Source: Vicingaceae bacterium
GTDB lineage: Bacteria; Bacteroidota; Bacteroidia; Flavobacteriales_E; Vicingaceae
DNA: 64,000 nt
Direction: 5' to 3'
NCBI GenBank assembly: GCA_028336925.1
Contig: JAOKVV010000001.1
Span: forward strand, 62,001-126,000
Each line of letters opens with the position of its first letter. Position 1 is the first letter of the stretch. A program made the position numbers and the translations under genes. Shown here in pieces: positions 41,754 through 46,484 of this stretch. The notes beneath the pieces were generated by a model. That model saw only the letters and a program-made list of their open reading frames with translations, ran no database searches and was not told the origin of the DNA.

Positions 41754-44700
41754 ATGTTAGTTAGATTTACTTTTTTATGTGTGTCTTTAGTTTTATGGAG
41801 TCACTTGGACGCCAGTAATATAAAGTTTCAAAGTTTATCCACGTCAGATGGTCTATCACAAAGCTCTATCAATACTATTTGGCAAGATAATTCCGGGTTT
41901 ATGTGGTTCGGAACACAAAATGGCTTAAATAAATATGATGGTTATAGATTCGAAAACTTTAGAGTTAATTTACTTGATTCGAATGCAATTGGAGGAAACA
42001 ATATTGCTGATGTTATCCAATGCACAGATGGATTAATTTGGATAGCAACCGAGTCAGGTATTTCTTCGTATTCACCTAAGAAACGTAAATTTTTAAATTT
42101 TTCTTTTGAACATTTAGGCATCAACACAAATGGTATTCGAAAAATTGTTCAGTTAGATAGTAATCATATACTCCTAGTTGATAATCATTATCTTATTAAG
42201 TTTAATTTGCAAGATTTTAGCTCAAGTATATTTTGGACTCCTAATGGGCAGAATATAAAAATTCACAATTTAGTAGCATGGAAGGGAACTATATTTGTTG
42301 CTGCAGAAAGTGGGTTGTATCGTCTTGAAGAAAAACTAAATACGGTAAATGCCAATTTACTATTGAATAATTACTCCGGCGGGTTTATTGGGTTTGTAAG
42401 TAATGATTCTAATTTATATACTTATTCGACTAAGCAGTTATTTAGATTAAATGAAAGCAATGGCTTTACTTATGAATTAGACCTCTTTGCTAAAGAGTAT
42501 TCATCAACTGCTTTAGCAACTATTTTATATTTCGATAAACGAAATTTTCTATGGATTGGAACGTCTTCCTCAGGTCTATATAAGTATGACCTTAAAAGGA
42601 AGGAAAGTATTCGCTATGTCCATTCTTCCAACCTAACTAATTCAATAAACTCTAATACTATACTAAGTATCACCTCAGATGATACCGGAATTCTTTGGGT
42701 AGGGACTCGTTTTGGAATTAATAAATTTGATAGTGAGAGACAAAATTTCAACCACTATCAAGTAGTTTCTGGGAATGAAAAGGTAGATAATAGCAATGTT
42801 TGGGCGATATATTCAGGCCAATCATCTATTGTTTGGATAGGAGGAAATAATGGTTTAACGCGTTTTAATAGAGTAACTAATAGCATGACTACTTTCGAGC
42901 CTAAACTGATAGGATTTCATGAAAGTAACGGGATTTACGCTATTCAGCCTTCCGATAATGGCTTTTTAGTGGGTACCGAAGAAGGGTTCAAGCATTTTGA
43001 TACGACGACTCATAAGTTTACTTCATATGCACATCCTAAGAATACAGGCCGAACCTACAGTATAGTTAAGATGGATAATGGGGAGTACTTTATTGGTAGT
43101 CGTCATGGGTTGTTAAGGCTTGACAATAATAAGAATTTAAGTCATTTTGTAGATATTTCCTTTGATCTAGAGTCAAGTGAAAAGGCCAATATTATTCGAT
43201 GCATTCAAATAAAAAGCAAAAATGAACTGTGGTTAGGAACGGAGGAGGGTATTGTTTGTTTTCAAACAGAGCGAGTGAATCCATTCAGAAATAGAATTTC
43301 ATACCCAGCTATACCTGATAATTTCATAACTACTTTATGTGTTGTTGGCAATAATCTTTGGTTTGGAACTACTACATCAGGATTCTATCAGTTGAATTTG
43401 TCAAACTTTAATTTATTCGGCATTTCAGAAAACGATGGGTTAGCGAATAATGCGATAAATTGTATTTTAAGTGATAATCAAAATAATTTATGGATTTCAA
43501 CTAATAAGGGTCTTAGCCGGTATAATATTAATAGTAATTTGATTACTAATTTTAATGAAACTGATGGTCTTCAGAATAATGAGTTTAATTCGAATGCCGG
43601 CTTCAAATCTGCACAATCCGAATTGTTTTTTGGAGGTATCGAGGGGTTTAATTTGTTTATTCCAAATGATATAGCAATTAATAGGAATCCCCCTAAGATA
43701 ACCTTAACGGGCTTTAAATTGTTTAATTCTGCTGTTCCAATTACACCTACCGGTGTACTTCAACAGAGTATTTCATCAACTCAAAAGATTGATTTAACTT
43801 ATAATCAAAAGGTTATATCTTTTGAGTTTGCTGCTTTACATTATTCTAACCCGAAGAAGAATAAACATGCTTATATGTTAGAAGGGTTCGATGAAGACTG
43901 GGTTTATATCGAAAATTCAAGAATTGCAACATACACCAATCTAAATGCTGGGGATTATGTTTTTAAAGTAAAAGGGAGCAACAGTGATGAAATTTGGAGT
44001 CAACCTCTTGAAGTTAAACTTACCATTCACCCCCCATTTTGGGAAACTTGGTTGTTTAGGTTGTTTGTTGTAGCAACTATCTTAGGATTAATATTTTGGT
44101 ATTACAGAAGTAGATTAAAACGTGTTCGACAACAGAAGAAATTGTTAGAATCTCAAGTAAAACTTAGAACAATAGAAATAATTAAGCAAAAAGAAGAAGT
44201 TGAGGTTCAAAAGCGATTGGTTGAAGAAGAGAAAGAGAAAACAGAGAAGCTATTATTAAACGTTCTTCCGAGAGAAACTGCAGAAGAATTAAAAAGTCGA
44301 GGAAGATCAAAGGCAAGGAGTTATAAAAAAGCAACTGTGATGTTTACCGATTTTAAAGGGTTTACTCAAATCGCTGAAAATTATAAACCCCAAGAATTAG
44401 TCGCCAAATTGGACAGCTTTTTTATCAAATTTGATGAGATTACCGAGAAATATGACATTGAGAAAATTAAAACCGTAGGAGACGCATATCTATGCGCAGG
44501 AGGTGTTCCTATCAGGAATAAAAGTAATCCTATTGACACCGTTTTAGCAGCCTTACAAATTCAAAAAGTAATGCAGGCAGCAGGCCAGGAGATGAAAGAA
44601 AACAATGAGGACCCTTGGGAACTTAGAATAGGGATTCATACCGGGGACTTGATTGCTGGAGTGGTAGGCATTAAACGATTTGCTTATGATATATGGGGGG

Positions 44701-45548
44701 ATACTGTAAACATAGCAAGCAGGTTAGAAACAGCTTGTGAATCTGGGATGATTAATATATCGGGCACAACTTATGATGCTGTAGCAGAGTTCTTTGAATG
44801 TGAATACAGAGGGAAAATTCCAGCAAAAAACAAAGGTGAAATAGATATGTACTATGTACATAGAATTAAGCCTGAATTATCTGATAATGAGGATGGGTTA
44901 ACACCAAATGAAGCGTTTGAGCATTATGTAAATTTAAAACTCTACAGCAACATAAATTACAAGAATGCTGAGAGGTATATCATTAAGCGATTAAATGATG
45001 AATTACCCCAAGGGTTGTTTTATCACGGAATCCACCACACGAAGGATGTTTGTGAAAGCGTAGAACGTCTTGCTATTTGGGAGGGTATAAGAGGGGAAGA
45101 ATTGTACTTGTTAAAAACAGCTGCATTATTTCACGATGCTGGATTCATAGAATCATATGAGAGTAATGAACCAATTGGTGCTCAGATGGCTAAGGTGATG
45201 CTACCAAATTTTGGCTATACAGAAGACCAGATAAATATGGTCATTAGACTAATAGAGGCTACAAAGATGCCGCATAATCCCAAAAATCATCTAGAGGAAT
45301 TGATGTGTGATGCAGATTTAGATTATTTAGGGAGAAGTGATTTTTATCCAAAAGCAGAAACCTTAAAAAAAGAGTTATTTAAATTTGGTAAGCTGAAGTC
45401 GGATAAAGATTGGGACTTCTTGCAGGTTAAGTTTTTAACAATGCATCAGTTTTTCACAAAGTCAGCGCAACAAAAAAGAGATCCTGAAAAGCAGAATAGA
45501 ATTACAGAGTTGAAAGAAGTGTTAAAAAAATATGATGTAGAGGATTAA
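41754..45548 (+). CDS. Periplasmic-propeller sensor fused to class III adenylate cyclase and HD domain
   Basis: A 1264-residue single-protein signalling system. After a signal peptide come two-component-regulator propeller repeats (about 20-640; motif GFMWFGTQNGLNKYDG), a Y_Y_Y domain (about 690-757), one membrane helix (about 767-785) and a signalling coiled coil. The class III cyclase domain follows with metal Asp D866 (MFTDFKGF) and D910 (VGDAY), purine-selecting K906 and D979, and N986 and R990 (TVNIASRLE). All are present, and the K/D pair favours ATP, hence cAMP. The C-terminus is an HD domain with H1091-H1095, H1127-D1128 (FHDAGF) and D1186, the layout of metal phosphohydrolases. Periplasmic ligand binding probably controls nucleotide making and possibly breaking. 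Confidence 0.9.
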   Translation: MLVRFTFLCVSLVLWSHLDASNIKFQSLSTSDGLSQSSINTIWQDNSGFMWFGTQNGLNKYDGYRFENFRVNLLDSNAIGGNNIADVIQCTDGLIWIATESGISSYSPKKRKFLNFSFEHLGINTNGIRKIVQLDSNHILLVDNHYLIKFNLQDFSSSIFWTPNGQNIKIHNLVAWKGTIFVAAESGLYRLEEKLNTVNANLLLNNYSGGFIGFVSNDSNLYTYSTKQLFRLNESNGFTYELDLFAKEYSSTALATILYFDKRNFLWIGTSSSGLYKYDLKRKESIRYVHSSNLTNSINSNTILSITSDDTGILWVGTRFGINKFDSERQNFNHYQVVSGNEKVDNSNVWAIYSGQSSIVWIGGNNGLTRFNRVTNSMTTFEPKLIGFHESNGIYAIQPSDNGFLVGTEEGFKHFDTTTHKFTSYAHPKNTGRTYSIVKMDNGEYFIGSRHGLLRLDNNKNLSHFVDISFDLESSEKANIIRCIQIKSKNELWLGTEEGIVCFQTERVNPFRNRISYPAIPDNFITTLCVVGNNLWFGTTTSGFYQLNLSNFNLFGISENDGLANNAINCILSDNQNNLWISTNKGLSRYNINSNLITNFNETDGLQNNEFNSNAGFKSAQSELFFGGIEGFNLFIPNDIAINRNPPKITLTGFKLFNSAVPITPTGVLQQSISSTQKIDLTYNQKVISFEFAALHYSNPKKNKHAYMLEGFDEDWVYIENSRIATYTNLNAGDYVFKVKGSNSDEIWSQPLEVKLTIHPPFWETWLFRLFVVATILGLIFWYYRSRLKRVRQQKKLLESQVKLRTIEIIKQKEEVEVQKRLVEEEKEKTEKLLLNVLPRETAEELKSRGRSKARSYKKATVMFTDFKGFTQIAENYKPQELVAKLDSFFIKFDEITEKYDIEKIKTVGDAYLCAGGVPIRNKSNPIDTVLAALQIQKVMQAAGQEMKENNEDPWELRIGIHTGDLIAGVVGIKRFAYDIWGDTVNIASRLETACESGMINISGTTYDAVAEFFECEYRGKIPAKNKGEIDMYYVHRIKPELSDNEDGLTPNEAFEHYVNLKLYSNINYKNAERYIIKRLNDELPQGLFYHGIHHTKDVCESVERLAIWEGIRGEELYLLKTAALFHDAGFIESYESNEPIGAQMAKVMLPNFGYTEDQINMVIRLIEATKMPHNPKNHLEELMCDADLDYLGRSDFYPKAETLKKELFKFGKLKSDKDWDFLQVKFLTMHQFFTKSAQQKRDPEKQNRITELKEVLKKYDVED

Positions 45549-45680: not shown

Positions 45681-46484
45681 ATGAAAAAAATTCTTGTCAT
45701 TGCTGCATTTCTTTTACTTGTTTTTAGTTCAGCATTTGCTGATAACTCAGGTAATATTATAGTAGAAGGACATTATCAAGCTAAAAATATTTTTATCAAA
45801 AATTCTTTTGGTGGATCCGGAGTAGGATTCTGTGTTTATGAAATTACTGTAAATGGGGAACTTTCTACTGACGAAATAAACTCAAGTGCTTTTGAAATTA
45901 ATTTTAATAACTTTAATTTCAAAATAGGAGACCCTATTTTAGTTAAAATTAAATATAAAAGTGATTGTGAAATTCAAGTATTAAATCCTGATGTATTAAA
46001 ACCAAAATCAACATTTATTACCGGAGATATTACGTTTACAAAACAAGGTGTTCTTAATTGGACTGCTTCAAATGAAACTGGGGCATTAGATTACATTGTT
46101 GAACAATTTAGATGGAATAAGTGGGTTAAAGTAGGAGAAGTTAGAGGGGATGGATTGCCTGGTCAACATGTATATTCTTTCAAGGTTACCCCTCATTCAG
46201 GAACAAATAAAGCTCGAGTTAAGCAAGTAGACTATACAGGTAAACCAAGATTTTCTTCTACCGTCGAGTATAATTCTGATATTGAAGCAATAACTTTAGA
46301 GAAAAAAACTAAATTTAAAGATGAAATCTTATTTACAAATGGAGAAACACTTTACGAAGTATATGATAAATATGGGAGTATTGTAAAAAGAGGTTTTGGG
46401 GGAAAAGCGAATATTCAAACTTTAGAGAAAGGAACATATTACCTGAGTTACGATAATAAAACAGAAACAATTGCTATTAAGTAA
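45681..46484 (+). CDS. Unknown secreted protein with C-terminal sorting-like tail
   Basis: A 267-residue protein I do not recognise. Residues 1-20 are a clear signal peptide (ending AFA). The mature part is beta-rich: an N-terminal domain with two Cys (about residues 51 and 90), then a segment like a fibronectin-type strand set (FTKQGVLNWTASNETGALDYIVEQFR). It ends with a short motif (YEVYDKYGSIVKRGFGGKANIQTLEKGTYYLSYDN) that recalls a compact T9SS C-terminal domain. It stands alone between the cyclase gene and a terminator. Function is unknown; export to the surface by T9SS is possible. Confidence 0.75.
   Translation: MKKILVIAAFLLLVFSSAFADNSGNIIVEGHYQAKNIFIKNSFGGSGVGFCVYEITVNGELSTDEINSSAFEINFNNFNFKIGDPILVKIKYKSDCEIQVLNPDVLKPKSTFITGDITFTKQGVLNWTASNETGALDYIVEQFRWNKWVKVGEVRGDGLPGQHVYSFKVTPHSGTNKARVKQVDYTGKPRFSSTVEYNSDIEAITLEKKTKFKDEILFTNGETLYEVYDKYGSIVKRGFGGKANIQTLEKGTYYLSYDNKTETIAIK

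Follow-up and report, generated by a model that had tools for sequence, protein, structure and literature searches.

A predicted propeller-sensor adenylate cyclase with a putative HD-type cyclic-mononucleotide phosphodiesterase in the same chain, from a Vicingaceae bacterium

Closest described systems and the Vicingaceae protein

The closest described system in which a class III adenylate cyclase (AC) and a class I-type HD phosphodiesterase (PDE) are joined in one chain is CAPE (COMBINED AC with PDE), present in Marchantia (MpCAPE) and other streptophytes. Both activities of MpCAPE have been demonstrated in vitro (PMC5159850; PMC8115329), and the His mutants made in its PDE domain, H199Q and H203Q, are spaced as the two His residues of an HX3H signature. 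Here we analyse a gene at positions 41754-45548 of a 64,000-nucleotide stretch of a Vicingaceae bacterium (contig JAOKVV010000001.1, positions 62,001 to 126,000; "the window" denotes this whole stretch), and we consider it fairly probable that its product unites a receptor adenylate cyclase and an HD-type cyclic-mononucleotide phosphodiesterase in one chain and is thus a bacterial counterpart of plant CAPE. The AC-PDE fusion as such is already known from plants (CAPE; PMC5159850), and the bacterial cyclase-HD family would be a variant of it. In CAPE the PDE is N-terminal and the AC C-terminal, whereas in the window protein the cyclase precedes the HD domain; CAPE is eukaryotic and has a class I PDE domain, whereas the window protein has a periplasmic sensor attached and an HD domain of a separate family that lies below the PDEase_I cut-off.

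The periplasmic input half is that of the Bacteroidota propeller sensors (Reg_prop plus Y_Y_Y, hybrid two-component type), whose output is a histidine kinase or DNA-binding domain, whereas the output of the window protein is a cyclase plus an HD domain. The bacterial receptor class III adenylate cyclases CyaD1 of S. meliloti and Rv1625c of M. tuberculosis are, as here, membrane-linked with a cytosolic catalytic domain. We know of no HD domain attached to receptor cyclases of this type. The HD domain shares fold and metal ligands with YpgQ and YedJ, its nearest solved sequence relatives, which are characterised as (deoxy)nucleoside triphosphate ((d)NTP) pyrophosphohydrolases and are not known to be linked with cyclases. 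The plant proteins AtCN-PDE1 and BDPDE1 are likewise HD proteins of the YpgQ scaffold and hydrolyse cyclic GMP (cGMP)/cyclic AMP (cAMP) (PMC6692503; PMC8431786); they are described as YpgQ/YedJ orthologues, and no fusion of either to a cyclase is reported. The literature treats class I-type PDEs as eukaryotic enzymes (PMC8115329; PMC4222275). No description of a bacterial cyclase-HD fusion or family was found in the open literature, which is weak evidence of novelty, as subscription papers and preprints were not covered.

The open reading frame (ORF) is one uninterrupted chain of 1264 amino acids (aa) without an internal stop, with the following features:

41754-45548, + strand: whole gene, a propeller / Y_Y_Y / transmembrane / class III cyclase / HD sensor of 1264 aa (ORF and Pfam)
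41754-41813, + strand: predicted N-terminal signal peptide, residues 1-20, read from sequence (MLVRFTFLCVSLVLWSHLDAS)
41826-43823, + strand: periplasmic beta-propeller of the two-component-regulator type, Reg_prop repeats, about residues 25-690 (Pfam Reg_prop, E 5e-21, 4 stretches)
43842-44027, + strand: Y_Y_Y domain, residues 697-758 (Pfam, E 2e-17)
44037-44108, + strand: single membrane helix, about residues 762-785 (the sole segment with hydropathy above 1.6)
44121-44303, + strand: coiled-coil / dimerisation linker, about residues 790-850, read from sequence (weak HNOBA-like match at 800-846)
44313-44861, + strand: class III nucleotide cyclase catalytic domain, residues 854-1036 (PF00211, Guanylate_cyc, E 2e-48)
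44862-44957, + strand: cyclase-HD linker, residues 1037-1068 (alignment: kept inside the fusion clade, absent or different in others)
44958-45545, + strand: HD domain, residues 1069-1264, a predicted cyclic-nucleotide phosphodiesterase with H1091, H1095, H1127, D1128, D1186 and D1188 (Pfam, alignment and model)

The ORF, the Pfam matches and the catalytic residues bear out an earlier note made from the sequence alone, which had described a propeller/Y_Y_Y input ending in a complete class III cyclase and then an HD domain; a Pfam scan of the protein gave no HisKA or HATPase match. Chance or artefact is ruled out by the presence of the cyclase-HD fusion in 36 of the 37 genomes of the window's family and in named records of other groups. 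The exception in the family, an 87% complete genome (G035), has no cyclase match.

The cyclase domain scores 164.7 bits against PF00211 (curated cut-off 21.9), its nearest solved structures are adenylyl cyclases, and the six class III catalytic residues listed in the earlier note are all confirmed: D866 and D910 (metal), K906 and D979 (purine-specifying), and N986 and R990 (transition-state). The Lys/Asp pair is of the ATP type, as had been proposed, and from it we infer that ATP is the substrate. This gene is the one class III cyclase found in the source genome (1.75 Mb, 70% complete). The only cyclic-mononucleotide (cNMP)-binding protein found there is of the Crp/Fnr type and lies on contig C23, outside the window, in agreement with the earlier statement that the window holds no CRP-like receptor.

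Sequence, fold and conservation of the HD domain

For the window protein the Pfam HD model stays below its cut-off (E 0.019 for the full length, 0.001 for the domain alone), and the same model is matched by all 59 members of the HD-family alignment (best 2e-10). We conclude that the HD domain is real but divergent. The metal residues, which the earlier note had called complete, are kept well beyond this one protein: 139 of 142 alignment rows retain H1091, H1095, H1127, D1128 and D1188 together, and the three exceptions are a fragment at a contig edge and, in each of the tandem pairs L159 and L161, the second copy. The class I PDE signature, defined as H(X)3H(X)25-35D/E (PMC4222275), is present as H1091-X3-H1095-X32-D1128, and the form HX3H-X25-35-D occurs in 134 of 142 rows, with a spacing of 32 in 129. 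Q1224, in a Q-x-x-F context, is a candidate for the purine-binding invariant glutamine (column Q 115, N 20, E 7 of 142), and F1227 is kept in 138 of 142 rows. PDEase_I (PF00233) gave below-threshold matches in 10 of the 59 members (best 18.5 bits against a cut-off of 24.8; E 0.0017). Two other HD families were considered and rejected: HD-GYP/c-di-GMP enzymes (no HD-GYP match in Pfam or NCBIfam, and no GYP motif in the HD sequence) and RelA/SpoT enzymes (no match in the Pfam and NCBIfam scans).

A single-sequence search of Protein Data Bank (PDB) sequences with the HD domain gave nothing useful. A profile search of the same sequences returned YedJ/YpgQ-type proteins first (2pq7, YedJ, BH2835, YpgQ; E 7e-10 to 4e-4) and class I PDEs next (E 0.004), the latter through a common segment YHxxxHTxDV...HD. 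H1095, H1127, D1128 and D1188 align with the YpgQ metal ligands H29, H58, D59 and D124, which form a mononuclear site (PMC8177086). The structure model of the HD domain (predicted local distance difference test score 95.8) has the all-helical PDE catalytic fold, class I domains being longer (about 310 residues). Foldseek ranked YpgQ (with ADP) first (E 6e-4) and class I PDEs, including PDE4 and PDE5, lower in the list (PDE5: E 0.02, TM-score 0.68). In the VIA structure comparison, all 50 matches listed are class I PDEs (Z 16.9-18.0; PDE10A 18.0, PDE7A 17.4, PDE9A 17.2, RhoPDE 17.0), superposed with root-mean-square deviations of 2.5-3.6 A over 188-200 of 205 residues, those at Z 17-18 with deviations of 2.6-3.2 A over about 195 residues; YpgQ is absent among these matches, and its absence there does not exclude it. 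These Z values are above the level that the tool's notes give for unrelated helical bundles, and a common fold does not prove function. Because the profile and fold matches, the metal ligands and the class I signature point both ways, we place the HD family, on sequence and model, between YpgQ-type enzymes and class I PDEs. The earlier note had named a grouping with dNTP or (p)ppGpp hydrolases among the outcomes that would count against a cyclic-nucleotide role, and half of this is found: the nearest solved sequences are indeed YpgQ and YedJ, whereas the scaffold that they represent also includes plant cNMP phosphodiesterases.

The cyclase residues vary more than the HD residues, being complete in 71 of 98 rows when counted automatically from an alignment in which some rows are truncated or gapped. 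Propeller forms have all six cyclase residues in 35 of 39 cases; in the window's family, 9 of the 13 short forms that have no sensor no longer possess the transition-state Arg, with the HD domain intact (Arg to H, A or T in L005, L007-L009, L011, L012, L014, L015 and L017). L036, L042, L148 and L156 have E, N or S in place of the first metal Asp of the cyclase and an intact HD domain, pointing to pseudo-cyclases. Since the HD residues persist in 139 of 142 rows and the cyclase is more variable, the predicted HD activity appears to be kept at least as strongly as cyclase activity, and some short sensor-less members may now be mainly phosphodiesterases. The converse arrangement also occurs: two Bacteroidales loci (L159:9419-11188 and L161:9550-11436) carry tandem cyclase-HD genes of which the second has a complete cyclase and a degenerate HD domain, to judge by its residues a natural maker-only version.

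Association with cyclases and cNMP-binding proteins

Of 60 relatives examined, 52 have the HD domain. Propeller forms of the cyclase-HD protein are 1260-1320 aa long, and short forms, with a membrane helix and coiled coil only, 510-534 aa; other inputs, read from sequence, are TPR-like (L028), GAF-like (L032, L033) and receiver-like (L040). Public genomes supplied 80 named loci, nearly all of them under a Bacteroidota label (the few titles with other taxa are probably mislabelled bins); 61 of these have the two domains fused and 17 have separate genes, the other 2 being contig-edge fragments. Because a tree of 136 HD domains requires 6 changes of fused state, at least 2 of them forced by well-supported branches, and because the cyclase-HD linkers differ among fusion types in the alignment, the pairing has probably been made or split more than once. 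We conclude that the pairing of a cyclase with a presumed breaker of its product, either in one chain or as neighbouring genes, recurs across Bacteroidota.

The two domains also co-occur by genome. The HD family is present in each of the 49 relatives that possess a class III cyclase, in some of them solely as a divergent member of 30-31% identity, and the 8 relatives that lack the family all lack cyclases too; three cyclase-less relatives have only divergent HD members. With one genome per family, the co-occurrence gives a Fisher p of 9e-5, and p 0.007 for non-fused cases. In a 148-genome sample of the phylum, a cyclase is present in 14 of the 15 genomes whose HD member is close (35% identity or more) vs. 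71 of 133 others (p 0.002). Strict co-occurrence at the level of the phylum was rejected, as it fails in the direction from cyclase to HD. True class I PDEs (PDEase_I over its cut-off) were found in 0 of 296 Bacteroidota, and class II PDEs (PDEase_II) in 1 of 60 relatives and 0 of 37 genomes of the window's family.

A separate HD gene lies directly behind a cyclase gene in L031, L054, L057, L138 (Dyadobacter bucti), L151 and L160, and the two genes are also adjacent by coordinates in genomes G075 and G174. In Chryseobacterium formosus (L160:103-6594), three class III cyclase genes in tandem are followed by the separate HD gene. At eight loci, the neighbour of the HD gene or of the cyclase-HD gene encodes a protein with a cNMP-binding (CNB) domain:

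L069 and L137: SulP-STAS-CNB protein
L140: Na/H exchanger-CNB protein
L138, L144 and L151: large CNB proteins, two with HEAT repeats
L146 and L152: CNB-histidine kinase-receiver protein

A CNB neighbour is present at 5 of 19 separate-HD loci vs. an expected ~0.5% each (p about 5e-8, a value that assumes a gene density and treats loci as independent). The repeated fusion, the operon adjacency, the CNB neighbours and the class I PDE-like fold and signature support, on comparative grounds, a role of the HD domain in signalling by cyclic mononucleotides.

Distant HD domains occur in other company. One is joined in frame, at the N-terminus, to a polyphosphate kinase (L052:3296-5995), and another, at the C-terminus, to a HemK/PrmC-like methyltransferase (L051:1325-2830). 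Seven ORFs of ~400 aa (L043, L045, L046, L047, L048, L050, L060) carry a distant HD domain, about 30% identical, fused to the membrane domain of the Pycsar effector PycTM, L048 having been tested and the other six assigned by sequence likeness; no cyclase was found near these genes in the retrieved flanks. The HD part of the PycTM fusions could be an off-switch for the effector or a sensor of its ligand.

Around the cyclase-HD genes of the window's family, an OmpA-type TPR/PD40 protein is encoded directly upstream in 12 of 15 loci with upstream sequence; 11 of these are preceded by PorP/SprF and usually also by a CHU_C-type protein, a type IX secretion-related set (loci with the CHU_C / PorP-SprF / TPR-PD40-OmpA set: L071, L073-L075, L077-L084). 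The window and its relative G002 are without this set, and there the gene follows an EnvC-like gene, as read from sequence. The family may possibly sense the machinery of secretion or gliding, an idea that is no more than a lead. Downstream in the window, 45681-46484 (+) encodes an apparently secreted protein of 267 aa without a Pfam match, whose group is represented at 8 of 21 loci, in most cases immediately after the cyclase-HD gene. A search with the consensus Bacteroidota promoter pattern returned no site ahead of the window's cyclase-HD gene, and the pattern was no more frequent than expected by chance.

Proposed mechanism, alternatives and meaning

According to the hypothesis of a receptor cyclase with its own phosphodiesterase, the periplasmic propeller would sense a ligand or an envelope state, and the signal would pass through the single membrane helix and the coiled coil to set the activity of a homodimeric class III cyclase, which would make cAMP from ATP. 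The C-terminal HD domain would hydrolyse the 3',5'-cyclic nucleotide product of the cyclase, presumably cAMP, and coupling of the two activities could yield a local or short-lived cAMP level, to which Crp-type and other cNMP-binding proteins encoded elsewhere in the genome would respond. For the broader proposition, namely that the HD domain founds a bacterial class of cyclic-mononucleotide PDEs that is structurally of the class I (animal PDE) type, has been joined to cyclases by repeated fusion and, over much of Bacteroidota, is what chiefly ends signalling by class III cyclases, we judge the chances to be about even.

Several points weigh against these proposals. Both the sequence profile and Foldseek place YpgQ/YedJ-type (d)NTP pyrophosphohydrolases first, PF00233 has no match in the window protein and none over its cut-off in any HD-family member, and our search found no activity data for any member of the HD family. 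Outside the class, many cyclase-bearing genomes are without this HD family, and another terminator, such as a class III (metallophosphoesterase) PDE, may exist, the searches having covered classes I and II. SpdA, the product of a PDE-like gene at a cyclase locus, is inactive on 3',5'-cAMP (PMC4222275); therefore, gene neighbourhood can mislead.

The main alternative, which we regard as unlikely, is that the HD domain, as a YpgQ-like nucleotide (pyro)phosphohydrolase, acts on NTP, dNTP or another nucleotide instead of the cyclic product and trims the cyclase substrate or serves housekeeping. The ranking of the solved relatives, with ADP-bound YpgQ as the first structural match, the one-to-one mapping of the metal ligands onto those of YpgQ, and the distant HD members joined to polyphosphate kinase and HemK all speak for such an enzyme; the selective pairing with cyclases and cNMP-binding effectors would be left unexplained, and class I PDEs take all of the best 50 VIA positions, with the caveat on YpgQ given above. 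Less probable still is a role in binding or regulation, with the HD domain as a metal-bound sensor of nucleotides that feeds back on the cyclase and has weak or absent catalysis. The tandem genes of L159 and L161 indicate that an HD-like fold can persist without catalysis, but the near-complete retention of metal and signature residues, the existence of standalone HD genes and the greater variability of the cyclase residues argue against this explanation. It is very improbable that the two domains make and degrade a cyclic mononucleotide other than cAMP (cGMP or cCMP/cUMP) in the manner of Pycsar, an idea suggested by the match of PADLOC PycC models to the cyclase (best 1.4e-14) and by the PycTM fusions of distant HD relatives, but opposed by the canonical ATP-type pair K906/D979, by the receptor-type architecture and by the fact that PycC models are class III cyclases that would match many cyclases; we set the PycC match aside as probably generic.

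The removal of cAMP in Bacteroidota is not described in the literature that we found. If the proposal of a receptor cyclase with its own HD-type phosphodiesterase is correct, the HD family, tied to class III cyclases and cNMP-gated effectors, would be the missing off-switch for much of the phylum and would parallel, in bacteria, the CAPE fusion of plants; the window protein would be a compact natural module in which one periplasmic sensor may set both the synthesis and the hydrolysis of one messenger.

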